Below, one piece after another: positions 31,212 through 56,410 of a DNA stretch of 64,000 nucleotides. Origin of the DNA: Sulfurospirillum arcachonense DSM 9755 (GTDB taxonomy: Bacteria > Campylobacterota > Campylobacteria > Campylobacterales > Sulfurospirillaceae); the NCBI RefSeq assembly GCF_000597725.1, contig NZ_JFBL01000007.1:62001-126000 (forward strand). Reading direction: 5' to 3'. Positions within the stretch are counted from its first letter, which is position 1; every line of letters begins with the position of its first letter. A program made the position numbers and the translations under genes. The notes below the pieces were generated by a model. It was not told the origin of the DNA. It worked only from the letters and a program-made list of their open reading frames with translations, and searched no databases.

Positions 31212-34200
31212 CTATTTAGTTTCTTTTTTAAAACTAAATTTTTGTTTTATTCTCACAACTAAATAAAAGAAAAGTGGAATAAATAAAACACCAATCACTG
31301 TAGCCGCTACCATACCACCAACAACTGTTGTTCCAATGATATGACGACTTGCACTCCCTGCACCTGAGCTAATTGCTAAAGGTAGAGTCCCTACTATAAA
31401 AGCCAAAGAAGTCATAACAATAGGTCTAAATCTTAACCTTGCAGCTTCTATTGTTGCATCAAATAGACTCATTCCATCGCGCAGTTTATCCATTGCAAAC
31501 TCTACAATTAAAATAGCATTCTTCGCAGAAAGCCCAACAAGAGTAACAAGTCCTACTTGGAAGTATACATCAGCTTCTAAGCCTCTTAGCAAAACTGCTA
31601 TTACAGCTCCCAATATTGCAAAAGGAATAGACAGAATAACTGCCATAGGAATACTCCAACTCTCATACAACGCTGCTAGAATTAAGAAAATAAAAATTGC
31701 CGCATAAACAACAGTATAATTTCCTTTAGATTCAAGTTGTTTTTCTTGAAGAGTTGTTCCCGCCCATGCTATAGTGTACCCTTCAGGTAAAATTCTTTTT
31801 GCTATCTCTTCGATTGCTTGGTTTGCATCATTTGATGCATATCCTATTCCTGGATTTCCTGTAATTCTTGCCGCATTAAACATATTGAAACGCTGAATAA
31901 TACTTGCATTTACTACTCTTTTTGTATCTACAAAAGTACTCAAAGGAATAAGCTCACCATTGTTTGAGCGAACAAAAACATCTTTATAGTTATCTTTAGT
32001 TGCTCTAAATTTTGAATCTGCTTGGATATTAACATGATATGTTCTTCCATAAAGGTTAAAATCATTGATATATCCTTTTCCAAAAGTACTTTGTAGAGTT
32101 ACATAAATATCTTTTAGACTTACACCCATAGCTTTTGCTTTTTCTCTATCTATACTCAACGAGTACTGAGGAACATTTGCATTTAGTGATGATCTAGAAC
32201 CTGTTATTCTTGGATCTTTACTAGCTTCAGCTAAAATCTGCTGTGTATATTTATTAAGCGTTTGTAAATCTCCACCTGTTCTATCTTGTATCCACATTTC
32301 AAATCCACCTGTCATACTCATCCCACTAATTGGAGGAGGACTAAGAGGAATAACAAAAGCATCTTTATTTTGCATCATTCTCATAAAAAATTGTCCTGCT
32401 AGTGCTTGTGAACTTTGGTTTGGTAATTTTCTCTCTTCCCAAGGTTTTAGAGGCACGAACATAACTGAAGAATCTGTTTTATATGCAAATGTTGTTAAAT
32501 CAAGTCCGGTGATAACTCCCGTGGATTCAATATCTTTATGACTTAAAAATGCATCTTCTATCCCATCTACTATTTTAATAGATTCTGATAATGAAGTTGC
32601 TGGCATCATATTAATTATTACTAACAATATCCCTTGATCTTCAGCTGGGACAAGACCTGATGGTATTTTTTGCATTGTGCCATATGTCGTATATAAAAGT
32701 CCACCAAAAAGTAAAAGTGAGAATACCCATAATTTTATTGTTTGTCGCGTAATACCAATAAATATCTTTGTAAGCCAATCAAAAAATTGATTAAATTTTC
32801 TAAGAGGCCAAATAGGTTCACTTTCATGCTCTTTTAAAAATACAGCACAAAGTGCAGGTGTTAGAGTAAGTGCAACGATACCTGAAATAACAACTGCTAT
32901 AACAATAGTAATAGCAAATTGTTTATACATAACACCACTAAATCCACCACTGAGTGCTGCTGGTATAAAAACAGCCGAAAGTACTAATACAATCGCTACA
33001 ATAGGAGTTGTCAACTCCTTCATTGCTTCTGTCGTAGCCTCTTTGACACTTACAGCTTTTGTTTTTAATATCCTCTCAACATTTTCTATAACAATAATGG
33101 CATCATCAACAACCAAACCAATAGCCAAGATAAGACCAAAAAGGGTTAAAAGATTAATAGAAAATCCTGCAACATATAATCCTGCAAAAGTACCTATAAT
33201 AGAAACAGGAATTGCTAGCACAGGAATAATAGTCGCTCTAAAATTCCCTAAAAAAAGATATATAAGTATAGTTACAAAAACAACTGCTTCTAAGAGTGTT
33301 TTTATAACCTCTTGAATTGAAGCCTTTACAAATATACTTGTATCATATGTCATTGCATAATCTAAACCTTTTGGAAAAGTAGCTTTTAACTCCTCTAACT
33401 TTTTATCAATAGCCGCTGAAACATCTAGTGCATTTGCACCTGAAGATAAAAAGACACCAACTGGCATCATAGGTTTTTTAGAATACTTTCCACTTGTATA
33501 ATATGTATCTGAGCCAAGTTCAATTCGAGCAACATCTTTCAAACGTAATGTTGATCCATCTGTATTTGAGCGAATAATAATATTTTCAAATTCTTGAACA
33601 GTTTTAAATCTACCTTCGGTGGAAACAACATATGTAAATGGTGCCTTTTTTTCTAATGGTTCAGAACCAACACTTCCTGCAGCGTATTGATTATTTTGAC
33701 TTGATATTTGATTACTTATATCTGTAGGTGTTAAATTATAATGTGCTAATTTAGCCGGATCTATCCATACTCTAATAGCATAATCATTTTGCCCAAAAAC
33801 TGTAGCTTCTCCTACACCGTTAATACGCTTCAACTCATCAATAATATTAATGCTAATATAGTTTGAAATGAACAATATATCATGTTCTGGATTATCAGAG
33901 AAAAAAGATACAACTTTAATCATATCAGGAGAACGCTCCTTAACACTTACTCCTTGTCTTTGTACTTCTTCTGGTAATTTACTCAGTGCTAATTGCACAC
34001 GGTTATTAATATCTACTTTTGCTTGTGAAACATCTGTACCAACTTCAAAATAAACACTCATAGAAAGAATACCACTTGGAGCTGCTGTTGAAGTCATATA
34101 TGTCATATGTTCAACACCATTAATAGCATCTTCAAGTGTACTTGAAACCGTTTTGGAAAGTGTCTGTGCATCTGCACCTGGATAAGTAGCAGTTATCTTA

Positions 34201-34331
34201 ATTTGAGGAGGTGCAACTGCAGGATATTGCTTTACAGGCAACACTTGTATAGATACAACTCCTGCTATTATTATCAAAAATGCTATAACAGTAGCAAAAA
34301 TAGGCCTATTTATAAAAAATTTTGAAAACAT
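31212..34331 (-). CDS. RND multidrug efflux pump (HAE1/AcrB family)
   Basis: A 1039-residue proton-driven inner membrane pump of normal length. It opens MFSKFFINRPIFATVIA as AcrB-type pumps do. The proton relay pair DD is in GLVVDDAIIVIENVERI. Later TM segments include GLVTLVGLSAKNAILIVEFA. It forms a tripartite system with the adaptor and TolC-like channel encoded directly upstream in the same operon. Substrate range cannot be read from sequence. No TTACATGTAA palindrome is seen over this gene. Confidence 0.95.
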   Translation of the reverse strand: MFSKFFINRPIFATVIAFLIIIAGVVSIQVLPVKQYPAVAPPQIKITATYPGADAQTLSKTVSSTLEDAINGVEHMTYMTSTAAPSGILSMSVYFEVGTDVSQAKVDINNRVQLALSKLPEEVQRQGVSVKERSPDMIKVVSFFSDNPEHDILFISNYISINIIDELKRINGVGEATVFGQNDYAIRVWIDPAKLAHYNLTPTDISNQISSQNNQYAAGSVGSEPLEKKAPFTYVVSTEGRFKTVQEFENIIIRSNTDGSTLRLKDVARIELGSDTYYTSGKYSKKPMMPVGVFLSSGANALDVSAAIDKKLEELKATFPKGLDYAMTYDTSIFVKASIQEVIKTLLEAVVFVTILIYLFLGNFRATIIPVLAIPVSIIGTFAGLYVAGFSINLLTLFGLILAIGLVVDDAIIVIENVERILKTKAVSVKEATTEAMKELTTPIVAIVLVLSAVFIPAALSGGFSGVMYKQFAITIVIAVVISGIVALTLTPALCAVFLKEHESEPIWPLRKFNQFFDWLTKIFIGITRQTIKLWVFSLLLFGGLLYTTYGTMQKIPSGLVPAEDQGILLVIINMMPATSLSESIKIVDGIEDAFLSHKDIESTGVITGLDLTTFAYKTDSSVMFVPLKPWEERKLPNQSSQALAGQFFMRMMQNKDAFVIPLSPPPISGMSMTGGFEMWIQDRTGGDLQTLNKYTQQILAEASKDPRITGSRSSLNANVPQYSLSIDREKAKAMGVSLKDIYVTLQSTFGKGYINDFNLYGRTYHVNIQADSKFRATKDNYKDVFVRSNNGELIPLSTFVDTKRVVNASIIQRFNMFNAARITGNPGIGYASNDANQAIEEIAKRILPEGYTIAWAGTTLQEKQLESKGNYTVVYAAIFIFLILAALYESWSIPMAVILSIPFAILGAVIAVLLRGLEADVYFQVGLVTLVGLSAKNAILIVEFAMDKLRDGMSLFDATIEAARLRFRPIVMTSLAFIVGTLPLAISSGAGSASRHIIGTTVVGGMVAATVIGVLFIPLFFYLVVRIKQKFSFKKETK

Positions 34332-35471
34332 CTATTGTTCCTTGTTAATTACTTTATCTACCACGACTGGAGCACCTGGTTTTACTCTAAAGAAATTATT
34401 TACAATAACTTTATCTCCACTTTTCAGTGGTCCACCATTTAGAACAAACTTATCTCCTGATTCATTACCTATTTTTACTGGTCTAATAGCAACTACACCC
34501 TTGTCTTCAATAAATACAATAGTTCCAAGAGGATTTTGAAGTACCGCTTTTTGAGGTATTGTGATGATATTTTTTTGTGTAATATCATTTAATAAAACTC
34601 TTACAAAACTTCCGGACATAAGATACCCATCACTATTGTCTACCACGGCTCTCATTTTTACTGTTGATGTTTCTTTATTGACATTTACATCCATAAAATC
34701 TATTGCACCACTTCTCTTTGTTGCTTTTCCATCTATCTCTAAAGTTACATTAATCACTTTGTTTTCTGGCATTGTCCAAATATTGTTTTTTATATTTACA
34801 TAATCACTAAAAGGCATAGAAAATTCTACAAATACTTTATCATTTTGAGTAATTTCTACAAGAGATGTAGGAGGATTTGACACAACTAAATCTCCAACAT
34901 CAACTTTTTTTAATCCTATAGTACCATCTATAGGCGCTTTAACTTGCGTATAATCAAAATCTATTTGTGCTTGATGTAATTCTGCTTTTGATAAAGATAA
35001 AGAAGCTAATGCTTCATTATAAGAAGACCATGCTACATCTCTTTTTTCTTGCGTTGTTGCTTTTCTTGCATATAATCTCTTAACTCTTTTCCAATTGCGC
35101 TCAGCATTATCCAAAGTTGCTTCACTCATTTTTACAGAAGCATTAGCTGCATCTACTTTTGCTTTATATATATTATCCTCAATTTTATATAACAAATCAC
35201 CTTTTTTTACTTTTTGTCCTTCTTCAAAATACTTATTTTCTAGTACCCCCAAAACTCTTGAAACCACACTAACATTTTGAAATGATTTAATTTGTGCTGG
35301 GTACTTTAATAGTATTGGTAAGTCTTTTGGTGCAGGAACAATATATATATCTGCTTTTGGAGCTTGTCTTTGTGGTGCTTTGGCACCTTTATTATCTGTT
35401 GCTTGTGCTAAAGTAGGTACTAGTAAAAGTGATCCTACTAATACTATTAGTCCTTGTTTTAGTTTTTTCAT
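34332..35471 (-). CDS. Periplasmic adaptor of the RND pump
   Basis: A 379-residue membrane fusion protein. It has a signal peptide (near LAQATDN), a biotinyl-lipoyl half motif VSRVLGVLENKYFEEGQKVKKGD, a coiled hairpin of about 60 residues, and a beta barrel (DYTQVKAPIDGTIGLKKVDVGD, VFVEFSMPF). It lacks a lipobox, so it may be soluble or held by an N-terminal anchor. It overlaps the tolC-like gene by four bases and abuts the pump gene. Confidence 0.92.
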   Translation of the reverse strand: MKKLKQGLIVLVGSLLLVPTLAQATDNKGAKAPQRQAPKADIYIVPAPKDLPILLKYPAQIKSFQNVSVVSRVLGVLENKYFEEGQKVKKGDLLYKIEDNIYKAKVDAANASVKMSEATLDNAERNWKRVKRLYARKATTQEKRDVAWSSYNEALASLSLSKAELHQAQIDFDYTQVKAPIDGTIGLKKVDVGDLVVSNPPTSLVEITQNDKVFVEFSMPFSDYVNIKNNIWTMPENKVINVTLEIDGKATKRSGAIDFMDVNVNKETSTVKMRAVVDNSDGYLMSGSFVRVLLNDITQKNIITIPQKAVLQNPLGTIVFIEDKGVVAIRPVKIGNESGDKFVLNGGPLKSGDKVIVNNFFRVKPGAPVVVDKVINKEQ

Positions 35472-36697
35472 TTTATATAATCCTTAATATTTTTATTTGT
35501 ATAGTAATAGTACGAAGCATATGCAATTTGAAGATTATTTAATGCTGTTTCATACTGGGCTTTAGCATTTGTTTTTACACTTAATGCATCTAAGTAATCT
35601 ACATTATTAACTGAACCTGCTTTGTACTTTTCAGCAATAATTTTATATGCACTAATTGCAGACTCTAATGAACTTTTAGCACTATTGATTTGTGCTTTAG
35701 TCGTATTTATTTTAGATAATGCCAATTCTATATTTATATCTTGTTCTTCAGTAGCTTGTTTTATTTGGCTCTCTAATGCCATTTTTTGAATCAAAATTGA
35801 TTCTTTTTGCTTTTTAAGATTTCCATTATCAAAAAGCTTTACGTTAAATGTTAGAAGTAATACATTTTGATTATCTAATCCATCAGGATGAGTAGAATCA
35901 CTTCTTCCATAATCATATACATTATAAGTATCTTCTAATCTAATTTGAGGAAGATACCCAGAGTTGATTGTTTTAGCTGAATACTTAAATGACGATGCAT
36001 TAGATTGAAGTACTTTTATATCATCACTTAATTCTTTTTGTATATTAGTTGGAACCTTAACAATAGAATTATCTAATGTCTCAATTTTTTTACCAATTTT
36101 TATACTAAGAAGCCTTTTTAAAGATAAAACTTGAAATTTTGTTGCTTCTATTTGATAGATATTGTCACTCAAAGCAGCTTGCAATTTATCAATTTCATCT
36201 TGAGTTGCACTTCCAACTTCATAAAACTTCTTAATTCTTTCAAGTTCAGCTTCTAATTGGATATTTTTTTCATTCAATGCATTTAAATTTGCTTCTTCAC
36301 TTTTTATATTATAAAAATCTTCAGCAATTGAAAGTTGTAAATTCTTTTTATAAGATGATGTATCATACTCTGACGATTTTAATAAAGCTTTATTTTTTTC
36401 TATCGTATTATGTTTTTTTCCTCCATCATATAAATCAACTCCAACTGTTGCATAGCCTTTATATATATCACCAGCTATCCCTACAGATTTTTGATCAGAA
36501 TTTTGATATGCTCCACCTAAATCAATAGTTGGATAATAAGCACTTTGTGCAACTTCTATATCTTTTGATTTTGACTCTTGTGTCAATGCTTTTGATGCTA
36601 CCATATGGTTATTATTAATAGCAAAATCCATCAACGACTGCAATCCTTCTGCATACAATGCAGGAACTATAAAACATAGTAATGCTAAACGTTTCAT
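35468..36697 (-). CDS. TolC-family outer membrane channel
   Basis: A 409-residue outer membrane efflux protein with a signal peptide (to about PALYAE) and two OEP repeats made of long helices: VAQSAYYPTIDLGGAYQN, YEVGSATQDEIDKLQAAL in the first half, and YKAGSVNNVDYLDALS in the second. It is the exit duct for the RND pump. Its start overlaps the marR stop by four bases. Confidence 0.92.
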   Translation of the reverse strand: MKRLALLCFIVPALYAEGLQSLMDFAINNNHMVASKALTQESKSKDIEVAQSAYYPTIDLGGAYQNSDQKSVGIAGDIYKGYATVGVDLYDGGKKHNTIEKNKALLKSSEYDTSSYKKNLQLSIAEDFYNIKSEEANLNALNEKNIQLEAELERIKKFYEVGSATQDEIDKLQAALSDNIYQIEATKFQVLSLKRLLSIKIGKKIETLDNSIVKVPTNIQKELSDDIKVLQSNASSFKYSAKTINSGYLPQIRLEDTYNVYDYGRSDSTHPDGLDNQNVLLLTFNVKLFDNGNLKKQKESILIQKMALESQIKQATEEQDINIELALSKINTTKAQINSAKSSLESAISAYKIIAEKYKAGSVNNVDYLDALSVKTNAKAQYETALNNLQIAYASYYYYTNKNIKDYIK

Positions 36698-37128
36698 TTA
36701 TTTAATCCTCTGTAATATTCTTTTATTTGATTTAATACTCTAAGTGTTGTTTCATAATCTTTTTCATCTACTATTTCTCTTAACTCTTTTTCTCTTTTCT
36801 CAAAAATAGGAGCAAGCTCTTCTATATTATTTGCTGTTTTTTTAGTAACATAAATTTTATAAACTCTTCTATCTTCTTCTGAGTTTTTTCTTACTAATGC
36901 ATCTTTTTTTACTAAGCAATCTATCATTCTTGTTATTGTAGTTTTATCCTTATGTAAAACTTCTGATATTTGTGTTTGTGTGCAACCTGGCATTTCATAA
37001 ACCAACTTTAAAAGAAGCCCTTGTTCACTGCTAATTCCAAATTTTTTCAAATATATATTGTGTTCATTTTCCATAATATTTTTGGTGAGTTTAAGCTGAA
37101 ATCCTATACAACTGACTAATTCTTTCAA
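36694..37128 (-). CDS. MarR-family repressor of the efflux operon
   Basis: A 144-residue winged-helix regulator: helices with LKLVYEMPGCTQTQISEVL, the recognition helix KDKTTITRMIDCLV and wing NSEEDRRVYKIYVT. I chose the TTG at 37128 because AAAGGAGG sits right before it; longer starts would run through the operator. It is the first gene of the efflux operon and most likely represses it, releasing when a drug or metabolite binds. Confidence 0.88.
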   Translation of the reverse strand: MKELVSCIGFQLKLTKNIMENEHNIYLKKFGISSEQGLLLKLVYEMPGCTQTQISEVLHKDKTTITRMIDCLVKKDALVRKNSEEDRRVYKIYVTKKTANNIEELAPIFEKREKELREIVDEKDYETTLRVLNQIKEYYRGLNK

Positions 37129-37140
37129 AATACCTCCTTT

Positions 37141-37180
37141 ATGCAATAGTTGCATATACAACCTTTGGCTATGCAACTAT
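37141..37180. promoter_or_regulatory. Inverted-repeat operator for the MarR regulator
   Basis: ATAGTTGCATA (37146-37156) and TATGCAACTAT (37170-37180) form an 11-bp inverted repeat with a 13-base spacer. The outer bases also contain ATGCAA-TAG-TTGCAT (37141-37155), so three half sites stand in series. The block lies just upstream of the marR ribosome site and would cover the promoter. Autorepression by MarR is the natural reading. Confidence 0.75.
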
Positions 37181-37272: not shown

Positions 37273-37587
37273 ATGAGAGAATTAGAAAATTTTCTAAAAG
37301 TAGTGTATAACAATGATTTTGTTGAAGGCCATGAAGTTTTAGAAGACAAATGGAGAGAGTGGAAAAATATACCTAAAAAAAGAGAAGAGAGTTTTATCCT
37401 AAAAGGTCTTATCAATGGTTCGACTGCCTTAGCACTTAAAGTCATGAAAAGAACTGACCCAGCCAACCAAGTATGGGAAACTTTTTTAAAATACTCTTCT
37501 CTTATAGACAAAATAGATTCAAACTATACTTTACTTTACAAAGAAGCTAGAGAACTTCTACATGTAAAGTATAAAGAGTTTTTTTAG
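37273..37587 (+). CDS. DUF309 protein
   Basis: A 104-residue helical protein with the DUF309 core: FVEGHEVLEDKWREWKN followed by FILKGLINGSTALAL and NQVWETFLKY. The family is small, cytosolic and of unknown function. It has its own short upstream region next to the marR operator (divergent) and ends six bases from the convergent M14 peptidase gene. A CTACATGTAA palindrome codes LLHVK near its end. Confidence 0.85.
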   Translation: MRELENFLKVVYNNDFVEGHEVLEDKWREWKNIPKKREESFILKGLINGSTALALKVMKRTDPANQVWETFLKYSSLIDKIDSNYTLLYKEARELLHVKYKEFF

Positions 37588-37593
37588 CTCAAT

Positions 37594-40185
37594 CTATTTG
37601 TTTTCAGGAATATACTGTATAACAACAGGTTCTGAATAATTGGGTACATCATCATAAGTAAAAATTGAAAAATATTTACTTATATCAAGTGCCCCAAAAT
37701 CATCATATGTATAATTATCAGGTCCTGCATAAATCTTTTGTCCATCTTTTTGAGAAGCAGGAAATCTATATGGATTTTTTATAACTTTTGTACCCCTAAA
37801 TCCATTTTCAGTAGGATTTTCCCAAGTAAGTTTAATTTTTCCATTTTCAATAAAAACTTTTGCATTTTTTACTTGTGCAACAGGAAATCTTCTTTTTGCA
37901 ATATGCTCTATTATGAGTTTAGGAGACAAATCTTTATTATTCACTTCCCATGCAACAATTTTATCTTTAATAGATTTTTTTGAAGACGTGGGTTTTAAAA
38001 CAAAAGCTACATCGCTTCTATCTTTTAATTTTTGATTTAATTCACGATTTGAGAATTCATCAAACATAAAATATTGTGTTTGATTGTTCTTTAACTCATT
38101 TGCACTAACATCATATCCTATGTTTTGAATTACTTCTCTATTACTAATACCCTCAAAATCTTTATCGATACTCTCATCTACAAACTCTAAATGAAACCTA
38201 ATATCATCTTTTAAATATATCTTCGTTGAATTTAATTCAAGGTATGCATTCACTATCATTGTCTCATTATATGGAGGAATAGTTCCTAAATTAAACTCCA
38301 TAGTAGAATATATTTTTGATCCATCCTTATCAAATCCAGATATAAGCTCATTCTCTTGTATTTTGTTTTTGCTTATTGTATGAATTATTTTTGGATATAT
38401 TGTTGTGATTTCTGGTTCTAATTTATATGTTAACTCTAATCTTGGTCTATACTCTAAACCTCCACTAAACTTACCATATCCTAAGTCCCATTGCATCATC
38501 TGTTTACTTCTACCAGCTTCTAACTCTTTAGGACCTTCTATTCTAAAGGTTATAAGTCCATTTTGAATTTGCTCATTTAAAGCATCACATTCTAGCCCTG
38601 AAAAATCCCATTTTCTCCAAATCCCTTGAGTAAGTTGATGTGATTTTGTAGGTTTACCTACATATGAAATAATTTTCATATTATCAACTTCATCAAAATT
38701 TGTTATATCCTTGATACTTTGAGGGTCTACAAGTCCTACGTTCCATTCACCATATTTTTCAATTGTAGCAGAAACTCTGTTTATAGGATAAAGACTAAAG
38801 TATGCAGACTTTATTGTAATATTTTTGGGTATTCTTAAAGGATTTATAGTCACTATAGCATATGATACTCCTTTGAGTTGATCAACGCCAACAAATAAAG
38901 AATTAACACCAAAATGCTGAGCATTATTTTTTAATTTTTCTGCTACATAGCCCGTCTTTGATGCTTGTGCATGGTATGTTCTTGTAAATTCATCAAAATC
39001 TGTATCTGTTCGCACTCTTATTTGTGGATAAAAAGCTGATTTTATGGTACGTGATTTATTTACCGCTCTGATGTTATAGTAATAATCAGTACATGATTCT
39101 AAATGTAAATCTGTAAATTCTAAAGACTTTGTTCTTGTAACAAGGTTTGAGCCCATACAAAAACTTTTATCTTTTCTACTTCTATATAATTCAAAATAGA
39201 CATCTTTTTTTGAATTATAGGTCCATTTTAAACTTACACTTGAAGAGCCAACACTATTAATTTCAAAGGAGTCAACTCTTTTTAATTTTGCTTTTTCTCC
39301 ATAATTTGGTACATCATTTAATGCTGAGAGGAGTGCCTCGATGTGCTCTCTTAAATGCTCATTCATATTTCCCATATAATCAGAAATATTCCTGGTACCA
39401 ACTTCAACTACACTTGAGAGTATTCCTTTTGAATGATAAAATTCTCTACCGCTTCCAGAGATAAGTTTTGCAGGAGGTTTTCCTTGATGTATCCCATACT
39501 CTCTATAGGAGACTTTTCTAATTTTTTCAGCCATATTGGCACATAAAATATTAATATCTGTTGTATCAATTGCGTCTTCATGCCTAAAGTCATGTGCTGG
39601 GAAAAATACATTTCCTTGTGAATGATAATCTAGTGCAATAGTTATATTTGAATGAGATTCAACAAAATCTCTGAGTGCTATAGTTTCTGGTTCAGAAAAT
39701 GGAGTTGGACCTCCATAAACATTTGAATTTGGTTTCGTTCCACTTACAAATCCAATGGGAAAGTTCCTATTTAAGTCTACCCCAAAACTTCCATCAGCAT
39801 TTTCTCTTCTATTTTTTCTCCAAAAATTAAAATGACTTCTTGAGTATTCATAACCATCTGGATTTGCACAAGGTACCATATATATGGTGGCTTTTTCTAA
39901 ATAGAGCTGAAGCATCAAATCTTGTTCTAAATTTTCCAATATATATTTGGTAAATTCAACAGCAAGTTCGTGCCCTATCCACTCTCTTGCATGTATAGTT
40001 CCTGTGAAAAATAGTGCTGGTTTTGTATCTGCACTTTTTATATCCTTAGAAATCGTTATTACATTAATTTCTCTTTTTTCCCACGTTTGACCAATAGATT
40101 CTATTTTAAAATGTTTAGGATATGTTTTTTCATACTCTTGGAAAATATTTGTAGATTCATTATACGATTTATATAATTTTTTCAA
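37594..40185 (-). CDS. M14 zinc carboxypeptidase with fibronectin-type and jelly-roll-like regions
   Basis: An 863-residue peptidase. The M14 domain (about 1-300) keeps all key residues: H65 and E68 (TIHAREWIGHE), R140 (VDLNRNFP), third zinc ligand H188 (DYHSQGN) and general base E261 (VVEVGTR). A fibronectin III-like domain follows (about 305-390), then repeat beta domains like DNRLRE modules, and a last FN3-like domain (about 775-863). No signal peptide is seen, odd for these surface-type modules. It is the last gene of the ATP-grasp operon, three bases after the ligase fusion. It may trim a peptide product or modification made by those ligases (inference). Confidence 0.88.
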   Translation of the reverse strand: MKKLYKSYNESTNIFQEYEKTYPKHFKIESIGQTWEKREINVITISKDIKSADTKPALFFTGTIHAREWIGHELAVEFTKYILENLEQDLMLQLYLEKATIYMVPCANPDGYEYSRSHFNFWRKNRRENADGSFGVDLNRNFPIGFVSGTKPNSNVYGGPTPFSEPETIALRDFVESHSNITIALDYHSQGNVFFPAHDFRHEDAIDTTDINILCANMAEKIRKVSYREYGIHQGKPPAKLISGSGREFYHSKGILSSVVEVGTRNISDYMGNMNEHLREHIEALLSALNDVPNYGEKAKLKRVDSFEINSVGSSSVSLKWTYNSKKDVYFELYRSRKDKSFCMGSNLVTRTKSLEFTDLHLESCTDYYYNIRAVNKSRTIKSAFYPQIRVRTDTDFDEFTRTYHAQASKTGYVAEKLKNNAQHFGVNSLFVGVDQLKGVSYAIVTINPLRIPKNITIKSAYFSLYPINRVSATIEKYGEWNVGLVDPQSIKDITNFDEVDNMKIISYVGKPTKSHQLTQGIWRKWDFSGLECDALNEQIQNGLITFRIEGPKELEAGRSKQMMQWDLGYGKFSGGLEYRPRLELTYKLEPEITTIYPKIIHTISKNKIQENELISGFDKDGSKIYSTMEFNLGTIPPYNETMIVNAYLELNSTKIYLKDDIRFHLEFVDESIDKDFEGISNREVIQNIGYDVSANELKNNQTQYFMFDEFSNRELNQKLKDRSDVAFVLKPTSSKKSIKDKIVAWEVNNKDLSPKLIIEHIAKRRFPVAQVKNAKVFIENGKIKLTWENPTENGFRGTKVIKNPYRFPASQKDGQKIYAGPDNYTYDDFGALDISKYFSIFTYDDVPNYSEPVVIQYIPENK

Positions 40186-40188
40186 AGT

Positions 40189-41700
40189 TTATTCTCCTAT
40201 TTTAAATCTTGATTTCATCTCACAAATTTTATTTTTGCCAATTCCTTCTATTGCTCTTAATTCATCGATAGATTTAAATCTCCCTAACTCTTGTTTTTTA
40301 TCTAAAATAAGTTTTGCTAACTTTACGCCTATACCTTTAATTGATTTTAACGATTCACTGTCAACCTTATTAATATTATATCTCATGTCATCTAAACTTT
40401 CATCCCATATCAAAATCATATGCTCATCAATAGATTCAATATCAAGTAAATCAGAAGTATCTGTTAAAATATTACACTTAGCATACTCACAAATTTCAAT
40501 CGCCAAATCTTCTTCCATCCCATGTAGGGTCATTATATCTGTTAAAGTTGCCTCATTTAAATTTATTTTTTTCATCACACAAACCTCTTGATTATCATGC
40601 TCTTTTAATAACTCATCTTCTATTGGTAAATCTTTAGGTTCAACAAGTTTTGGCATATCATATTCTTGACTTTGTTCAGCTATCTCCATATCAAACGTAT
40701 CATTTATATCTTTAATAAAATATGTTCCATCACAACTTGGTTTATATCTACTAAACCCAATATATCTCATTGTTCTTAACAAATTAGAATCAATCTTACC
40801 TAACTCTTCCCATGAATAAAGAGGAACATGAGGTTTTGGAAAAACCCCCTTAGAAAAATCCCACATCAAATACTGACAAATCCAATCTCTTATGTAAGGA
40901 AAAGCTGCAAATGCAGTTGCACACTCTAAGATATAGGGTTTTTCTGTTTTTTTATCAATAACTATATCACAAGCCCAAAATTCTGCTTTTGCTGCCTTAC
41001 TTGTTTCAACTGCAAGTTCAAGTGCACTCATAGGAACATTTTCATAACTCATACTTCCACCTTGACTAGTATTTGTTATCCATTCTCCCTTAGCAGAATA
41101 TCTCCAAAAAGCACATATAGGCTTGTGCCCTATTAACATTATTCTTAAATCTCCGGAATTCTTCATACTAATTGCATTTTGTGTATATATAGGATTATAT
41201 TTTCTTTTTTCTATTAATTCTTGAGCTTCTTTATAGTTATTAACTTTATGAACATAATATCCTCCATAGTTTGATGGACCATAACTTCTTTTTATTACTT
41301 GCGGATATTTTGCCTTTTTTTTCAAATATTCATAACCCTTTTTTTTATTATAAAAAATTTTTGTTTTAGGTGTAGAAAGATTATATTTTTTACAAAATAG
41401 AGTCACATTTTCTTTTGATTTATTTGGAAATTGTGTTTGAATGGATGGTACAAATCTAACATGTGGTAATTCTTTTGCAATTTGAACAAAAGTATCATAC
41501 GCAGTAGCTGGAATATTTCCTATTAATATATCTATTTTCTTTTTTTTCATTTCTTTTATAAATCTATTTTTATCATTTTTCCAATGGTATATAACACTTT
41601 CTATAGGGTCTGGCCAGCCCTTAAAATTTGACTGATCAAAAAATCTTAAAACATAATCTAAATATAAAAATCCTAATTTAGGCAACTTCTGTTTGCTCAT
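40189..41700 (-). CDS. ATP-grasp ligase fused to ComEA-like helix-hairpin-helix repeats
   Basis: A 503-residue protein. The first 320 residues form an ATP-grasp domain: QVIKRSYGPSNYGGYYVHKV, DLRIMLIGHKPICAFWRYS and TNTSQGGSM. The metal motif, normally E-x-N, reads E-C-A (ILECATAFA, near 260), so the second magnesium ligand is missing. From about 375 on there are two helix-hairpin-helix units (INLNEATLTDIMTLHGM and YNINKVDSESLKSIKGIGVKLAKLI, then ELRAIEGIGKNKI), a DNA-binding fold as in ComEA. I chose the ATG at 41700 with AAGGA upstream over the TTG before it. It overlaps the other ligase gene by about 23 bases. Confidence 0.82.
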   Translation of the reverse strand: MSKQKLPKLGFLYLDYVLRFFDQSNFKGWPDPIESVIYHWKNDKNRFIKEMKKKKIDILIGNIPATAYDTFVQIAKELPHVRFVPSIQTQFPNKSKENVTLFCKKYNLSTPKTKIFYNKKKGYEYLKKKAKYPQVIKRSYGPSNYGGYYVHKVNNYKEAQELIEKRKYNPIYTQNAISMKNSGDLRIMLIGHKPICAFWRYSAKGEWITNTSQGGSMSYENVPMSALELAVETSKAAKAEFWACDIVIDKKTEKPYILECATAFAAFPYIRDWICQYLMWDFSKGVFPKPHVPLYSWEELGKIDSNLLRTMRYIGFSRYKPSCDGTYFIKDINDTFDMEIAEQSQEYDMPKLVEPKDLPIEDELLKEHDNQEVCVMKKINLNEATLTDIMTLHGMEEDLAIEICEYAKCNILTDTSDLLDIESIDEHMILIWDESLDDMRYNINKVDSESLKSIKGIGVKLAKLILDKKQELGRFKSIDELRAIEGIGKNKICEMKSRFKIGE

Positions 41701-42625
41701 CAAATATCCTTTCTTTTTGTATCGCTTTTTGAGTTTTTTTATCTATTAAATCAACTATCAAATCTATTTTTTTATCATTAAAATTTAATCCCATTTTCTC
41801 TTGTTCTGGTGTTGCGAATGCAGGGATACCATTGACTTCTAATACTAAATATTCTTCATGTTCTCTATCATATATAATATCAATTCCAGCTATATCCAAA
41901 CCTGCTATTTTGGCTGCTTGAAGTGCCAAATTAGCAACTTCATCATTCAATTCTCTTTTAAAAATAGAACCTCCACTTGTAATATTTGTTCTCCAATCAC
42001 CTATTCCAGCACGTCTTCCATAACAACCCACCAATTTTCCATTAACAACATCTACTCTATAATCTGTATTGTCGTAATCTATAAATTTTTCAACATAAAA
42101 GTACCTTAAATCCATTTGATTTAAAAAAGGCATTACCATATCTAATGTTTCTTGACTATCTATTTTAGTAAGGCCTACACCACCCCAACCATCTGTAGGT
42201 TTATATACCATCTTTTTCCAATTTGCAATTAAAAACTGTAAATAATGAATATCATCTCTATGACATAAATTATAATTTGCTGTTTTTATGCCATTATTAC
42301 TAAGTAAAAAAGAAGTTTGAAATTTATCTTCTGTTAATTCAAATGATTCATAAGAATTTAAAGTGGGGATTATTCTATTTAATGCCTTATACAAATACAT
42401 TTGGTATTGTGTTTGTTCTCCTGCATTATAAGAAAAATAAAGATCTAATTGATTCATATTAACATCATTGCAAACTATATTTTTATTTTTTGCTAAAGCA
42501 TTTCTTAAATTTAAATCAGTAATTGTTTGGATTTCTCTTTCTCGAAGCTTTTTTACTATTTTTTCTTGAATAACAGCTCCACCACCATTTGAATATAACC
42601 ACATCCCAATTTTTCTTTTATACAT
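41678..42625 (-). CDS. RimK-like ATP-grasp amide ligase
   Basis: A 315-residue ATP-grasp enzyme with the full active site: ATP-binding lysine in MVYKPTDGWGGVGL (about 142), WRTNITSGGS like the RimK WRTN element, and the metal motif E263-x-N265 (VLEVNGIPAF). Enzymes of this family join an amino acid to a peptide or protein carboxylate through an acyl phosphate. It lies second in a four-gene operon between the M20 peptidase and the ligase/HHH fusion. The acceptor is unknown. Confidence 0.87.
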   Translation of the reverse strand: MYKRKIGMWLYSNGGGAVIQEKIVKKLREREIQTITDLNLRNALAKNKNIVCNDVNMNQLDLYFSYNAGEQTQYQMYLYKALNRIIPTLNSYESFELTEDKFQTSFLLSNNGIKTANYNLCHRDDIHYLQFLIANWKKMVYKPTDGWGGVGLTKIDSQETLDMVMPFLNQMDLRYFYVEKFIDYDNTDYRVDVVNGKLVGCYGRRAGIGDWRTNITSGGSIFKRELNDEVANLALQAAKIAGLDIAGIDIIYDREHEEYLVLEVNGIPAFATPEQEKMGLNFNDKKIDLIVDLIDKKTQKAIQKERIFDEQTEVA

Positions 42626-42636
42626 AACAACCTCAT

Positions 42637-43737
42637 TTATATATTGGTCTTTTGAAAATAGCTTAGAATAGTCGTCATCATTTTTATTCTTTGAATAAAC
42701 GAACTTTTTAATGCTCTTTCATTGTTTGTATGATCCCCATCACCAAAAGGACCGAAGCCATCAAGAGTTGTAACTCCCATGTGTGCCATTATATTAGCAT
42801 CACTTACACCACCTCTCCTTTGTGTATATATTCTTTCGTTAATTAGTCTTTCAAAAAGTCTTATTAACTCAAACTGTTTTTTATTCTCTTGCATAACATT
42901 TCTTTGAATTACACAATTTGCAGTTGATTTTGTTCCAGCCACATATGAAAAATCTGTAATTCTTTCTACTTCTTTTATAATACGTTTTTTTTCATCTTCA
43001 GTATTAAATCTAAACTCCATCATCATTTCACAATGAGGAGATACTGTATTGATACCTATTCCCCCTTCAATTTTCCCAACGTTAACAATAGTCCCTTTAT
43101 CAAAATCCATTAGTTTTGAATACTCTTGAAGTTTATATGCAGCTTCTAGATTTGCATTAATTCCTTTTTGGTATGAAGTACCAGCATGAGATGCTTTTCC
43201 TTCAACTCTTATAATATATCTTCCTACACCCTTTCTTGCAGTTACTAATTCAAGTTTTTCTCCTGCAGCTTCAAATACAAAACAGTAATCATAATTTTTT
43301 GCTAATGAAGAAGTCAAAAGAGAAGAATCATCACTACCTGTCTCTTCATCTGAAACTAATAAATAATCAATATTTGTTATTTTTTGATTTTGTTTGTATA
43401 TATTTCTAAGTGCTTCAAGTGCAACTATATTTCCACCTTTCATGTCGCAGACACCTGGCCCATAAATATACTCATCGTCTTCACTGAATCCTTCAAAATA
43501 GCCATTTGGGAAAACTGTATCATTATGTCCTAAAAGCAATATATTTGGTAAATTTTCTTTTTTCGGGCTTACATGTAAATGATGATCACCTATAAGTTCT
43601 CTGTTATAAGTAATTGTTTTAAATCCTAACTCTTCTAACCATCCAGACATAATTTGACTCACTTCATCTACACCAGCTTTATTTTGCGTATATGAATTTA
43701 TAGTAACGATTTTTTCTAAATCTAATAGATACTTCAT
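42637..43737 (-). CDS. M20-family metallopeptidase
   Basis: A 366-residue peptidase like carboxypeptidase G2: LLGHNDTVFP (HxD), GPGVCDMKGG (bridging Asp), SDEETGSDDSS (Glu base and ligand), the dimerisation domain with KASHAGTSYQKGINANLE, and a final histidine in GDGDHTNNERA. It is cytosolic with no signal. It is the first gene of the operon and probably removes or recycles a residue of the peptide made by the ATP-grasp enzymes. Confidence 0.88.
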   Translation of the reverse strand: MKYLLDLEKIVTINSYTQNKAGVDEVSQIMSGWLEELGFKTITYNRELIGDHHLHVSPKKENLPNILLLGHNDTVFPNGYFEGFSEDDEYIYGPGVCDMKGGNIVALEALRNIYKQNQKITNIDYLLVSDEETGSDDSSLLTSSLAKNYDYCFVFEAAGEKLELVTARKGVGRYIIRVEGKASHAGTSYQKGINANLEAAYKLQEYSKLMDFDKGTIVNVGKIEGGIGINTVSPHCEMMMEFRFNTEDEKKRIIKEVERITDFSYVAGTKSTANCVIQRNVMQENKKQFELIRLFERLINERIYTQRRGGVSDANIMAHMGVTTLDGFGPFGDGDHTNNERALKSSFIQRIKMMTTILSYFQKTNI

Positions 43738-43775
43738 AATAATTTCCTATCTAAAGTAAATTATTATATACTATG

Positions 43776-43807
43776 AATGATTAATAATCAAGATATAATT
43801 AATCATT
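43776..43807. promoter_or_regulatory. Inverted repeat upstream of the M20/ATP-grasp operon
   Basis: AATGATTAAT and ATTAATCATT form a 10-bp inverted repeat with a 12-base spacer, 38-70 bases upstream of the M20 start. It may be an operator for this operon; it lacks the GC content of a good terminator. Confidence 0.45.
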
Positions 43808-43814
43808 TTTAATA

Positions 43815-43847
43815 AAAAACAATTAATTATAAATAATTATTGTTTTT
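43815..43847 (-). terminator. A/T-rich hairpin after the TauE-like gene
   Basis: AAAAACAAT..ATTGTTTTT arms extend inward with TAATTA elements (one base bulged), giving a long A/T hairpin followed by T residues on the minus strand. It lies just past the TauE-like stop at 43855 and could end the long housekeeping transcript. Confidence 0.5.
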
Positions 43848-43854
43848 ACTTATA

Positions 43855-44598
43855 TTATTTTATAAAAAATTTAATTATGAGGTAACAAGAGAGAATCCAT
43901 AAACTAAGCCGTAATATCTTTGCATACAAGTTTTCATCAAGCTTAGCTCTAATTTTTAATCCTAGAAATAATCCAATTAAAGAGATTGTTACAATCGGTA
44001 TCATAAGTAATAAAAACTTTGAAGAAAAACTTCCATATATACCAAATATAACTATTTGAATTGCTTTACTAATAAAAAAACAAAAATTCATTACAATAAT
44101 GGACTTTTCTTTTGGTATTTTACTTTCTATTATATAAATGATAAGCACTGGAATCATTATATTTACAAGTCCACTTACAATCCCACTGAAGAATCCAAAA
44201 CTAATCATTAGTAGTTTTGGATTTTTTTGTATACTCTCATAAAGAGAAAATTTCATATGACCTGTATTTAAATATAAAAGTATTACTGAAGCTAAAATAA
44301 GAGTATACGCATCATTGTAAAATACAATAAGAAAATTTGTTCCAATAAAACTTCCTATAAGAACAAAAAGTATAAGTAACCAATACTCTTGCCAAACTTC
44401 TCTAAAATTCCCACTTTTTTTTATTACATTAGCATTGACAATCATCGTTGGGAAAAGTGTATAAAGAACAGATTCTTTAAGAGTTAAAAAGATAGATAAA
44501 AGAGGAGTTGCGACCATAGGAAAACCAAATCCTAATATGCCATGTGCTAAACCTGCTCCAAAAAAAACAATTATTTCAAATAAGACTAAATTCTCCAT
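43855..44598 (-). CDS. TauE/SafE-family membrane permease
   Basis: A 247-residue membrane protein with about eight hydrophobic helices and the family hallmark GLAHGILGFGFPMVATPLLS near the start and SGLVNIMIPVLIIYI later. The family exports sulfite, sulfoacetate or other organic anions. It overlaps ribD by 13 bases at the tail of the translation-factor operon, an odd location. A role in protecting against sulfite in a sulfite-respiring cell is possible but unproven. Confidence 0.85.
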   Translation of the reverse strand: MENLVLFEIIVFFGAGLAHGILGFGFPMVATPLLSIFLTLKESVLYTLFPTMIVNANVIKKSGNFREVWQEYWLLILFVLIGSFIGTNFLIVFYNDAYTLILASVILLYLNTGHMKFSLYESIQKNPKLLMISFGFFSGIVSGLVNIMIPVLIIYIIESKIPKEKSIIVMNFCFFISKAIQIVIFGIYGSFSSKFLLLMIPIVTISLIGLFLGLKIRAKLDENLYAKILRLSLWILSCYLIIKFFIK

Positions 44599-52134: not shown

Positions 52135-53495
52135 CTATCTATAATCTTTTTTGCTGATTTCATAACATCAAAAACATTATCTTTCATCCAGTTTTTATCC
52201 ATCCACTCTTCTGGCCTAACTTCAACTCCTTGAACCAATATTCCAAAATGTAAATGATCTCCAAGTGCAAGTCCTGTAACTCCTGTTTTTGATATAACTT
52301 GACCAGCTTTAACATTTTCACCTTCGTCTACTAAAAAGCTTGAATTGTGCCCATATAAAGAATACACACCTAAACCATGAGAAATAATTATATTCTTTCC
52401 ATATATGCCATTATACTTTGCAAAAACAACAGTACCAGAATTTGAGGCAATAACATCAGCTTCTGCAGTACTTGCTAAGTCTAACCCCAAATGATACGAT
52501 TCACTTACTTGCTTTTTTTCATAACTAAAAAATCTATGATCACCAAAACTAGCAACTGCTGCTGCATTTTTTAAAGGATAAAAAGGCTTTAAACTAAAAC
52601 CATTTATTTTTTCAGTAGGAACTTCAGAAGTTACCTCTTCTATAACTTTTTCATTACTATCTCTTAAATCTTCATTGACATATTTAAATCTTTCAATTTT
52701 ATCCATACTTTTAGCTGAAGGAAGTTCTTCTTCAGCCAAATCTGCAATTTTGCCATTTAAAAAATTGTCACTTAATTTTAATTTTGAAACCTTATACTTT
52801 TTCCCTTTTAAATAAAATCTTACTCTACTTTTTGAAATATTACCTGCTTTATCTTGAGCAATAATTGTAGCTTTAAAATTTTTTTTATCACTTGGCCAAG
52901 CTAAAAGTGAAACATAATGGTCATCTTTATAAAAAGGTGTTGGGTAAAATCTTTTATCAAAATTTGTTTGTATATATAATTCTTTTAAATTTTCATCCTT
53001 TGCTTTAAATACAACAGTAGCAACTCCACCTTTAAGAATCTTATAGGAATTATTCACAATAAACAATTCTGGTCTTTTTGTATCTACATTTATAATAGAT
53101 GTTTTAACTGCTTTGTTTCCTGAAAAAAAGTTCCATTTACTTGAATCTACAGCTTCTATCGTCAGTTCAAAATGTTTTTTATTACTAACAAAGCCTGTTC
53201 TTGGAAACTCTATATTTAGAGTAAACTCTTCTTGTGATATTTCAAAAAGTTTTTTCAAAAGTACAATACTATTTTTACCATCACTCAAAGTTGCTCTTAC
53301 AAATTTTATACCACTTTCATCACTTATCTTCACTGCAATTGGTTTCTTTAAATTCCAATCTATTTTTTTTAACAGTTCCACACTAGGTACATTTCTTTCA
53401 AAAATTTTAGAGTTATATAAATATGCTAATAATGCTGTAAGTAAAATTAACAAAATCATAATTATAATACCTGATGAACTTCTTTTTCTTCTCAT
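52131..53495 (-). CDS. M23 peptidoglycan endopeptidase
   Basis: A 454-residue protein with an N-terminal membrane anchor (IIIMILLILLTALLAYLY), a long beta-rich region, and a C-terminal LytM domain: ESYHLGLDLAS, GKNIIISHGLGVYSLYGHNS and GDHLHFGILV, which contain the zinc ligands. It cleaves peptide cross-links in the wall, in shape control or daughter cell separation. It lies next to minC. Confidence 0.9.
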   Translation of the reverse strand: MRRKRSSSGIIIMILLILLTALLAYLYNSKIFERNVPSVELLKKIDWNLKKPIAVKISDESGIKFVRATLSDGKNSIVLLKKLFEISQEEFTLNIEFPRTGFVSNKKHFELTIEAVDSSKWNFFSGNKAVKTSIINVDTKRPELFIVNNSYKILKGGVATVVFKAKDENLKELYIQTNFDKRFYPTPFYKDDHYVSLLAWPSDKKNFKATIIAQDKAGNISKSRVRFYLKGKKYKVSKLKLSDNFLNGKIADLAEEELPSAKSMDKIERFKYVNEDLRDSNEKVIEEVTSEVPTEKINGFSLKPFYPLKNAAAVASFGDHRFFSYEKKQVSESYHLGLDLASTAEADVIASNSGTVVFAKYNGIYGKNIIISHGLGVYSLYGHNSSFLVDEGENVKAGQVISKTGVTGLALGDHLHFGILVQGVEVRPEEWMDKNWMKDNVFDVMKSAKKIIDR

Positions 53496-53570
53496 TTACC
53501 TATCTCCTGTTTACTGAACAAAATTTATCATTTAATTTTCTTCATTTTATAAATAAAAGCAATAAATCTT

Positions 53571-54509
53571 TTATAGTGCTTTTATTTGGTCTGTTATCTC
53601 TTTACATGTAGCTTTTGTATCACTACTATTCACATTAAAACCCGCTGCACCCTTATGTCCACCGCCATTATACATAATAGAAATTTTGGATACATCTATA
53701 TCTCCATCTGAACGTAATGAAATTTTACAAAATTCATCTTGGGCTAAAACCATCAATGCTACTTTCACATTAGCTATATCTCTTAACATACTAATAATAT
53801 TTTTAGTATCACTTCTTTTTGCTCCAGTCTCTTCTAAAATCTTTTTATCAAATATGATTGAAGCTATAGTAGCATCTACATGTAACTCAAAATTACTCAA
53901 CATATAGGCTATTAATCTAATCTTTGCTAAAGATTGTCTACTTTTTACTTTTTGTGCTATCTCTTGTGCATTTGCTCCACATCGAATAAGCTCTGCTGCT
54001 GCTTCAAAAGTTTTTTCATCAACTCCACCATATCTAAAAAAATTTGTATCTTCAGCTATGGATGTATAAAGTGATATTGCACTCTCTTTTGGAATATCAA
54101 TATCATTTTCTTTTAAAAGTTTATACACAACCATACCAGCACTAGAAGCTTCAGGTAATACTATGTTAATATCACCAAAAAGTTCGTTACTTTTATGATG
54201 GTCTATATTGATAATTTCAAAATCACCTTTTTTGATTTTCAATCTATCTAAACTTCCACAATCACAGCTTACTAACAAATCAAAAGATTTAGGAAGTTTA
54301 TTTTGTATCTTAGAGTAACCTTCTAAAAAATCAAACTCTTTTGGTAATTCTTCTTTAGTCTCATTAAATAATGAAACCCTACATCCCACTTTTTTCAAAA
54401 CACTATACAAACCTAGACTAGAACCAATCGTATCTCCATCTGGATGTACATGAGAAACTATAACAGTGTGTCTTGCACTTATAATTTTATCCCATGCTTT
54501 TTTATACAT
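53571..54509 (-). CDS. DHH phosphoesterase, NrnA-like
   Basis: A 312-residue DHH/DHHA1 protein: SHVHPDGDTIGSSLGLY, NIDHHKSNELFGDIN, FRYGGVDEKTFEAA and a C-terminal GGGHKGAAGF. NrnA-like enzymes cut short RNA (nanoRNA) and pAp to mononucleotides. No oligoribonuclease gene (orn) is in this window. TACATGTA palindromes occur at 53602, 53876 and across its start codon (54504-54513). Confidence 0.88.
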   Translation of the reverse strand: MYKKAWDKIISARHTVIVSHVHPDGDTIGSSLGLYSVLKKVGCRVSLFNETKEELPKEFDFLEGYSKIQNKLPKSFDLLVSCDCGSLDRLKIKKGDFEIINIDHHKSNELFGDINIVLPEASSAGMVVYKLLKENDIDIPKESAISLYTSIAEDTNFFRYGGVDEKTFEAAAELIRCGANAQEIAQKVKSRQSLAKIRLIAYMLSNFELHVDATIASIIFDKKILEETGAKRSDTKNIISMLRDIANVKVALMVLAQDEFCKISLRSDGDIDVSKISIMYNGGGHKGAAGFNVNSSDTKATCKEITDQIKAL

Positions 54510-54570
54510 GTAAACTCCGTCTATTTAAAAGCTGTTAGTATACTTAACTTAGTATAAATTTTAGGTTATT

Positions 54571-55347
54571 CTACAAATTAAAGTTAAATAAATAGATAAC
54601 GAACTTATATAAAACAAACAAAAATAGTAGAGGAAACAAAATAGTTTGAAATAAAAAAATAATTATCAAATCAACTATATGTTGACCAGTACTTTCTATA
54701 AGTCTCTCAAAATCTAAAAGTTTCTTTTTATAGTATGAAGATGAAAAATAACTTGCTTTGCTATCATCAAACTTATCTATTTTTTCTTTTGCATTATGCA
54801 CTATATTTTGAGATACTTTTACACTATATTCTTGTTCTACAAAATTTACATAAACATATTCATTAGCATAACTCATAAAAGGAATACTAAATCGTAAAAA
54901 AATCAAAACAAAAGTAAATTTAAAAAATAACCTTCCTTTGAGTTTATCCTTATAAAAATAAACTACATTTGCCATAAATAAAATACAAATCAGTACTATA
55001 TCAAAACCATTACATGTAACTATATTCATAAGAATTTTTTGTATCCCTAATGACGTTAAAGAAGCTAACATTACCCAAGAAAATTGTTCAACTAAATCAT
55101 TAATAGGATCTAACACTTCTCCTATGGTTATAGTAACTCCAGGAGGTCCTACTTCAGTTCCTTGCACTAAAGATATTGCTGCATTTAACGCTTTAGCACT
55201 CGCAAAAACGCTTACTGCTTGTTTAAAAGAAATATCAATCCTACTGTCTGTTTTCTCATCTATATTAGAAAATACAGATAAATATACCACTAAGATTGAT
55301 AAAAATAAAACTAAAATTTTATCCCAACTTTTTTTTATAATTTCCAT
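54571..55347 (-). CDS. Uncharacterised membrane protein next to flhB
   Basis: A 258-residue membrane protein starting at the ATG at 55347 (AGGAAC upstream). It has an N-terminal helix, a polar stretch with SFKQAVSVFASAKALNAAISLVQGTEVG, several central helices, a soluble loop (QNIVHNAKEKIDKFDD) and a strongly hydrophobic C-terminus. I do not recognise it. It lies right after flhB in the same operon. Its role in flagellar export is only suggested by position. Confidence 0.65.
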   Translation of the reverse strand: MEIIKKSWDKILVLFLSILVVYLSVFSNIDEKTDSRIDISFKQAVSVFASAKALNAAISLVQGTEVGPPGVTITIGEVLDPINDLVEQFSWVMLASLTSLGIQKILMNIVTCNGFDIVLICILFMANVVYFYKDKLKGRLFFKFTFVLIFLRFSIPFMSYANEYVYVNFVEQEYSVKVSQNIVHNAKEKIDKFDDSKASYFSSSYYKKKLLDFERLIESTGQHIVDLIIIFLFQTILFPLLFLFVLYKFVIYLFNFNL

Positions 55348-55348
55348 A

Positions 55349-56410
55349 TTAGTTCCTATCTTTTTGAGAACTTCTATACACAAAAGCAAGTACCTCAGCA
55401 ACTGCTTTATAAAGAGTTTCTGGTATCATATCTTCTATTTCACACTCTTTATACAATGCTCTAGCTAATGGAGGATTTTCAACAACTTGAATATTGTGTT
55501 CTCTTGCTATCTCTTTTATCTTCAATGCTAAGTGATCAACCCCTTTTGCCACAACCTTTGGTGCATTCTCTTTTTCTGTATCATATCTAATTGCTACTGC
55601 AAAGTGAGTTGGATTTGTTATAACAACATCTGCACTAGGTATATCTTGCATCATTCTTTTTTTAACCATTTCCATTTGCACTCTTCTAATACGTGCTTTT
55701 ACTTGGGGATCACCTTCCATCTGCTTATATTCATCTTTTATTTCTTGTTTACTCATACGTAAATCTTTAAAATAATTGTATCTAACAAAAAATAGATCAA
55801 ACAAGGCCAAGCCTAAAAAAAGCATCAACATCACAGCAATTAAAATTAAAGCTTTATCTCTTAGCCATAAAAGCTGATCATAAATAGGGAAAAAGATAAC
55901 TGAAGGTAACTCATGAACAAAATCAAACAGATAATAATAAGCAACAGTTAAAACAAGTCCCACTTTTACTATAGTTTTTATAGACTCTACTAATTTTTTC
56001 ATGCTTATAAGATTTTTTATACCCTTAATTGGATCAATTTTTTTCAAATCAGGAATAAGCGGTTTTGTAGTAGTTATAAAACCAAACTGCATAACAGAGG
56101 CTAAAACACCTGAAATTGCTACTATAGCTGCTAAAGGCAAAATCATAAGAGCAAACTCTTGAAAAATTGTTATCATTACAATATGAACAGTATTTTTATC
56201 TAAATCTACACCTACAAAGGATTGAGTAAATCTATATAAACCAAACATCCTCTCTTTTATAAAAGGGAACAGTGCTAAAAAAGCACCAATTGCAACAACG
56301 AGTGTCACAAAACTACTAGTGTCTTGACTTTTAGGAACATTTCCTTCTTTTCTGGCATCTTCAATCTTTTTGGAACTGGGTTCCTCTGTTTTTTCCTGAT
56401 CGTCAGCCAT
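55349..56410 (-). CDS. flhB: Flagellar type III export protein FlhB
   Basis: A 353-residue membrane protein that switches export from rod/hook to filament substrates. It has four membrane helices (about 30-215) and a cytosolic domain with the self-cleaving N266-P-T-H motif (VITNPTHFAVAIRYD). The charged N-terminus (DDQEKTEEPSSKKIEDARKEG) is typical. Other flagellar genes are not in this window, as flagellar genes are scattered in this phylum. Confidence 0.95.
   Translation of the reverse strand: MADDQEKTEEPSSKKIEDARKEGNVPKSQDTSSFVTLVVAIGAFLALFPFIKERMFGLYRFTQSFVGVDLDKNTVHIVMITIFQEFALMILPLAAIVAISGVLASVMQFGFITTTKPLIPDLKKIDPIKGIKNLISMKKLVESIKTIVKVGLVLTVAYYYLFDFVHELPSVIFFPIYDQLLWLRDKALILIAVMLMLFLGLALFDLFFVRYNYFKDLRMSKQEIKDEYKQMEGDPQVKARIRRVQMEMVKKRMMQDIPSADVVITNPTHFAVAIRYDTEKENAPKVVAKGVDHLALKIKEIAREHNIQVVENPPLARALYKECEIEDMIPETLYKAVAEVLAFVYRSSQKDRN

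Follow-up and report, generated by a model that had tools for sequence, protein, structure and literature searches.

Four adjacent genes on the minus strand of the window (the whole 64,000-nucleotide stretch analysed here) encode an M20 peptidase (M20), a RimK-like ATP-grasp ligase (RIMK), a second RimK-like ATP-grasp protein with a variable tail (GRHHH) and an M14 carboxypeptidase (M14). They almost certainly constitute one functional module, because they travel and are retained together across many bacteria. Our preferred reading, to which we assign a probability of roughly 40%, is that the four proteins form a transferable cytosolic system that would reversibly add acidic amino acids to the carboxyl end of an acceptor, presumably a macromolecule, and remove them again. 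The added residue would probably be glutamate.

A preliminary description of this DNA had proposed that the four genes are a tight minus-strand operon, and the open reading frames, their spacing and the Pfam matches bear this out (Table 1). The genes are read in the order M20, RIMK, GRHHH, M14, with a gap of 11 bp between M20 and RIMK, a 26-bp overlap of RIMK and GRHHH (41678-41703) and a gap of 3 bp between GRHHH and M14. The promoter call upstream of M20 is weak, because the scan gave 49 such matches in all and chance would give 56. None of the four proteins reached the cut-off of an NCBIfam equivalog among those shown. The Peptidase_M14 domain (PF00246) of the module is the single match to that family in the whole genome.

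Table 1. Features of the four-gene module and its edges (positions in the window).
Feature	Position	Strand	Basis or context
M20 metallopeptidase, 366 aa	42637..43737	-	ORF + Pfam PF01546/PF07687 (Peptidase_M20 + M20_dimer)
RIMK, RimK/MptN/LysX-type ATP-grasp ligase, 315 aa	41678..42625	-	ORF + Pfam RimK
GRHHH, RimK-like ATP-grasp with variable C-terminal tail, HHH_3/ComEA-like here	40189..41703	-	ORF + Pfam RimK+HHH_3
M14A-type carboxypeptidase, 863 aa, with FN3 and DNRLRE-like beta domains after the catalytic part	37594..40185	-	ORF + Pfam Peptidase_M14
Promoter-like TTGATT-17-TATAAT, just upstream of M20	43763..43791	-	Motif scan
Block missing at the same site in relatives	37588..43854	.	Between TauE-type permease gene and DUF309 gene
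TauE-type permease gene	43855-44598		Edge of four-gene block
DUF309 gene	37273-37587		Other edge of four-gene block

Each of the four proteins was searched for separately in 200 genomes of the order. With the window's own genome included, GRHHH was found in 62 genomes, RIMK in 59, M14 in 62 and M20 in 63; with it left out, 55 genomes carried all four genes, 67 carried any of them and 132 carried none. The presence and absence of the four genes are near-identical across the 200 genomes, and the genes are mostly adjacent. Their linkage is far beyond chance, with Fisher p < 1e-37 for every gene pair, related genomes being non-independent samples. Among 40 neighbourhoods, the arrangement is chiefly M20-RIMK-GRHHH-M14, either in one direction throughout or with M20 divergent. 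The preliminary description had suggested searching for a conserved four-gene neighbourhood and had held that homologues scattered without linkage would speak against its proposal. Linkage proved to be the rule, and where the genes separate, all four are still retained. Four genomes have the complete set on four different contigs; as contigs are assembly pieces, 'dispersed' means only non-adjacent in these cases. Two other genomes have an M20-RIMK-M14 trio with GRHHH elsewhere. In genomes with the genes apart, the neighbours of each gene differ and no shared association was found. The detached GRHHH of one of the two trio genomes (locus L060, 9335-11440) is flanked by efp (elongation factor P) and dnaE, as named from a look at the sequence; a function for GRHHH based on these neighbours was considered and dropped, the arrangement being confined to a single lineage.

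Several exceptions to the full set are draft or incomplete assemblies. One genome scored as GRHHH-negative has, by eye, an apparent tail end of GRHHH at a contig edge, beside M14. Two cases look genuinely partial: G037, with M20 only, and G176, with M14 only, M20, RIMK and GRHHH not having been found in that genome. The lone M14 of G176 (locus L197, 6078-8675) stands at the site usual in Arcobacter, with argG on one side and a gamma-carbonic-anhydrase-like gene on the other. These solitary peptidases, both of common catabolic families, would fit a role in scavenging or repair, with M20 and M14 breaking down peptides that are imported or aberrant and having little functional connection to the ligases. 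We consider such a role quite improbable, as all four genes are co-retained even on different contigs, and an exact four-gene block stands at a site that is empty in relatives.

At this site in relatives, rimP, ribD, the TauE-type gene and the DUF309 gene are contiguous, the last two overlapping (loci L171-L176); elsewhere, the same two genes are separated by a short gap in one locus and by another gene in a second. In the window, 6,267 bp carrying exactly the four genes lie between them. Of the 200 genomes, those listed from the rest of the window's family are without RIMK, GRHHH and M14, and only G037 has M20. The simplest reading is that the module was gained at the TauE/DUF309 site, repeated loss being the alternative.

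The module is mobile and has been transferred between phyla. A scan of GTDB gave 348 GRHHH relatives, and the titles of the 80 that were listed are mostly from Campylobacterota, with Thiomicrorhabdus, Desulfuromusa and a Desulfuromonadales bin also represented; bin labels may misassign single contigs, but the carriers also include named strains, Thiomicrorhabdus heinhorstiae HH1 and Photobacterium sp. DA100. All four genes were present within the fetched stretch in 61 of these 80 loci, and many of the others end at contig edges. A Photobacterium replicon has the same four genes, with M20 divergent. Among the matches listed, the nearest relatives of the four proteins mostly bear the label of Arcobacter or related genera. 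The pairwise identities of the four proteins, calculated for 68 distinct cassettes, correlate at 0.52-0.84; the correlation is lowest for RIMK, which may therefore have been swapped at times. Extra copies of RIMK beside the cassette in four loci, one of which also has an extra GRHHH-like gene, suggest diversification of the ligase.

The flanks are housekeeping genes that depend on the lineage, one set comprising argG, an S4-domain protein gene and the gamma-carbonic-anhydrase-like gene, and another rplS, trmD and rimM. Because the flanks vary in this manner, the module comprises exactly four genes. A fifth conserved gene was sought and rejected, no flanking gene within 5 kb being common to all loci, and no acceptor gene is conserved in or beside the module. 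In the window, an RND-type efflux operon (pump, adaptor and outer-membrane factor from a look at the sequence) and a MarR regulator adjoin the module at 31212-37176. The operon is placed outside the module, because relatives have the MarR and outer-membrane factor genes beside DUF309 when the module is absent. A phage or viral origin was discarded, no GRHHH relative having been found in phages or viral contigs, as was a defence system, for which there was no PADLOC match. The patchy, transferred distribution would also suit a cluster for an antimicrobial peptide or toxin that protects its own producer; with neither a linked precursor peptide or transporter nor a defence-system match, this is exceedingly unlikely.

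The RimK-like ligase had been described as intact, and the residues of its ATP-grasp fold agree: K101, K142, E179, R190, D249, E263 and N265, mapped against the genome's own RimK, are kept in 34/34 RIMK proteins. In Pseudomonas RimK, the poly-Glu contacts of the N-terminal half are S7, R8, S14, R64 and S68 (PMC10092738). RIMK has N, I and Y at the positions of R8, S14 and R64 in 33-34 of the 34 proteins, mostly E at that of S68, and mostly Q at that of S7, where the window's RIMK has Ser. Because these contact residues are replaced in nearly all relatives, the acceptor of RIMK should differ from that of RimK, and as most acceptor-site residues are missing, glutamate chains like those of RimK are not implied. 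The Rimk_N domain (PF18030) is matched by the genome's own RimK and has no match in RIMK. NCBIfam bit scores for RIMK, all below cut-off, were 143 for MptN, 97 for LysX (cut-off 275.6) and 56 for RimK PRK10446 (cut-off 331).

The genome's canonical RimK lies in a separate cluster (contig C2, ~53,400-55,900; locus L163, 777-3191), in which a RimB-like gene of the Zn_protease family, canonical RimK and an AstE/AspA-type gene stand in a row. It is likely a classical cluster for ribosome modification, joined here by an additional enzyme of AstE type. Given this separate RimB–RimK–AstE cluster, the four-gene module is a second system. Canonical RimK occurs in 31 of the 200 genomes, few of which also carry the module; the module therefore neither replaces nor requires it.

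In M14, whose catalytic part spans approximately residues 1-300, the zinc ligands H65, E68 and H188 of the HxxE..H site, the catalytic Glu E261 and the residues R123, N139 and R140 are kept in 69/69 complete cassettes. The claim that all catalytic residues are present thus holds for these positions but not for the equivalent of Tyr248, which is variable (K/H/R/S/A/Q). Residue 247 aligns with position 255 of carboxypeptidase A (CPA; alignment to carboxypeptidase A4, of moderate confidence there). Of the 69 proteins, 68 have Arg at this position and the remaining one has Lys; the short stretch around it, searched alone, retrieved no M14. In the vertebrate M14A enzymes carboxypeptidase O and Xenopus Cpo.1, Arg255 gives rise to acidic C-terminal specificity (PMC9925722). 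It is rather likely that M14 shares a preference for C-terminal acidic residues (Glu/Asp), and the basic residue at position 255 in this manner supports an 'erase' role. The M14 model (pLDDT 82.6, with low confidence in the loops that partly surround the active site) matches the folds of carboxypeptidases T, A and O, including 5mrv (carboxypeptidase O) at 27% identity. The solved-structure and fold matches together (CPT, CPA, CPB and CPO) place it in M14A, not M14D.

The preliminary description had noted no evident signal peptides, and the M14 frame leaves no room for one, since it has 864 codons against 863, only one extra codon upstream, and its start residue is shared by 64 of 69 homologues. 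Beyond the catalytic part, FN3 was matched in 14/19 members and DNRLRE in 19/19, weakly in the window's own M14. DNRLRE domains are usually found on surface or secreted proteins, which weighs against the cytosolic explanation.

The nearest solved relative of M20 is carboxypeptidase G2 (1cg2, E 7.7e-23), a glutamate-releasing enzyme, and its NCBIfam match, below cut-off, is glutamate carboxypeptidase-like. Residues H71, D73, D98, E131, E132, E156 and R308 are kept in 69/69 proteins. By this similarity, M20 may release C-terminal glutamate in the manner of carboxypeptidase G2. Elsewhere in the window's genome (contig C5, 78973-80043) lies another M20 gene, a distant paralogue with 32% identity.

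GRHHH has a strongly conserved ATP-grasp domain (residues ~1-332) and a variable C-terminal tail. The ATP lysines and the metal ligands D246 and E260 are kept, but Ala replaces the third ligand, Asn, in 69/69 proteins (ECATAF). Of the two ATP-grasp ligases originally proposed, both folds are present, but GRHHH, because of this substitution, may be a pseudo-ligase. Synapsin, an ATP-grasp fold that binds ATP and has no known ligase activity, provides a precedent. HHH models were matched among 19 members as HHH_5 in 12 and HHH_3 in 7; the tails from Photobacterium and Thiomicrorhabdus had no HHH match, and in two loci (L069 and L071) the protein stops soon after the ligase domain. The AlphaFold model of GRHHH (pLDDT 77.8) has LysX/ArgX and RimK as its best Foldseek matches. 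The proximity to LysX/ArgX, some of which were solved with LysW, raises the prospect of a LysW-like carrier pathway, in which a small acidic carrier, its gene lying elsewhere, would receive an amino acid from RIMK and GRHHH, and M20 would release the product; LysK is an M20-type enzyme. We regard this pathway as improbable, since the listed proteins of at least 70 aa include no consistently linked kinase, reductase, aminotransferase or carrier, and the LysX score of RIMK stops at 97 against 275.6.

In our preferred reading, RIMK would be the working ATP-dependent ligase and GRHHH its partner, either a specialised second ligase or an ATP-binding pseudo-ligase, with an HHH tail that, where present, would attach it to nucleic acid or to a partner. 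M14 would cut acidic residues singly from the C-terminal end, and M20 would remove the last glutamate or hydrolyse freed acidic peptides. RimK/RimB and MyfA/MyfB, compared with the module below, are precedents for this reading. Counting against it are the loss of most RimK acceptor-site residues from RIMK, the Asn-to-Ala change in GRHHH, an HHH tail that some members do without, and the lack of a conserved acceptor gene. The interactions among these proteins are, like the macromolecular acceptor, predicted. A bolder version would make the module a bacterial counterpart of tubulin glutamylation and deglutamylation: a new, horizontally spread system that reversibly puts acidic tails on a protein or on a target bound to nucleic acid, with GRHHH as a pseudo-ATP-grasp/HHH protein that targets the ligase and M14 as a cytosolic, carboxypeptidase O-like eraser. 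This version is doubtful.

The main rival, which is quite possible, holds that RIMK (with GRHHH) makes a peptide metabolite or poly-amino-acid storage polymer that M14 and M20 degrade when needed, the product serving as a solute, cofactor tail or reserve. Two ligases and two peptidases lacking an acceptor gene would suit such a product, as would the rank of the cofactor and carrier ligases MptN and LysX above RimK among the characterised families matched by RIMK, all below cut-off, and the resemblance of the M14 tail to DNRLRE/CBM96 polymer-binding modules. Several named carriers of the module belong to genera that we take to be marine, which we also count in its favour. MyfA/MyfB offers a precedent (PMC8141765). 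However, a simple dipeptide would not be expected to call for a multidomain carboxypeptidase of 863 aa or for the HHH-type tails that most GRHHH proteins carry, and neither a transporter nor a regulator is linked with any consistency.

Near-perfect co-inheritance and transfer between phyla make the module a strong lead in the search for a new modification or metabolite. If acidic tails are indeed written and erased by it, bacterial reversible glutamylation would extend beyond ribosomal protein S6 and would use a chemically different eraser. The module is directly testable, with no evident signal peptides and with cultured carriers such as Malaciobacter halophilus DSM 18005 and Thiomicrorhabdus heinhorstiae HH1.

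The preliminary description knew of no system with these four genes, and we likewise found no earlier description in the literature searched, which excludes the 2009 amidoligase survey. In S6 glutamylation by RimK–RimB(–RimA), RimK adds Glu and RimB removes it (PMC11957791, PMC7343187); a RimK-family ligase, a remover peptidase and a scattered distribution are shared with the module. However, RimB is a retropepsin-like aspartic enzyme, whereas the module has M14 and M20, and that system has no second ATP-grasp protein; RIMK has neither a Rimk_N match nor most of the RimK acceptor residues. No RimB-type partner was found among the recurrent neighbours of the module within 5 kb. MyfA and MyfB are, like RIMK and GRHHH, two ATP-grasp proteins, which cooperate on a glutamate chain, building poly-Glu on methylofuran (PMC8141765); the likeness is one of description, and theirs is a methylotroph cofactor, with no peptidase mentioned in the paper. 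LysX/ArgX–LysW–LysK likewise combines a RimK-family ligase with an M20 enzyme and includes the best fold matches of GRHHH, but the module is without linked LysW or LysZ/Y/J and adds M14 and a second ATP-grasp protein. Carboxypeptidase O, also of M14A, shares the basic residue at position 255 and the fold (5mrv), whereas the module's M14 is bacterial, has no signal peptide, carries an FN3/DNRLRE tail and does not conserve Tyr248. The tubulin TTLL ligases and cytosolic carboxypeptidases, whose logic the preliminary description had invoked, are alike by analogy in pairing an ATP-grasp amide ligase with a cytosolic M14 enzyme, and the probably acid-specific M14 fits the 'erase' half of that logic. 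The cytosolic carboxypeptidases, however, are M14D and the module's enzyme M14A, its ligases are RimK-type and no tubulin is involved, and RimK/RimB is the closer parallel.
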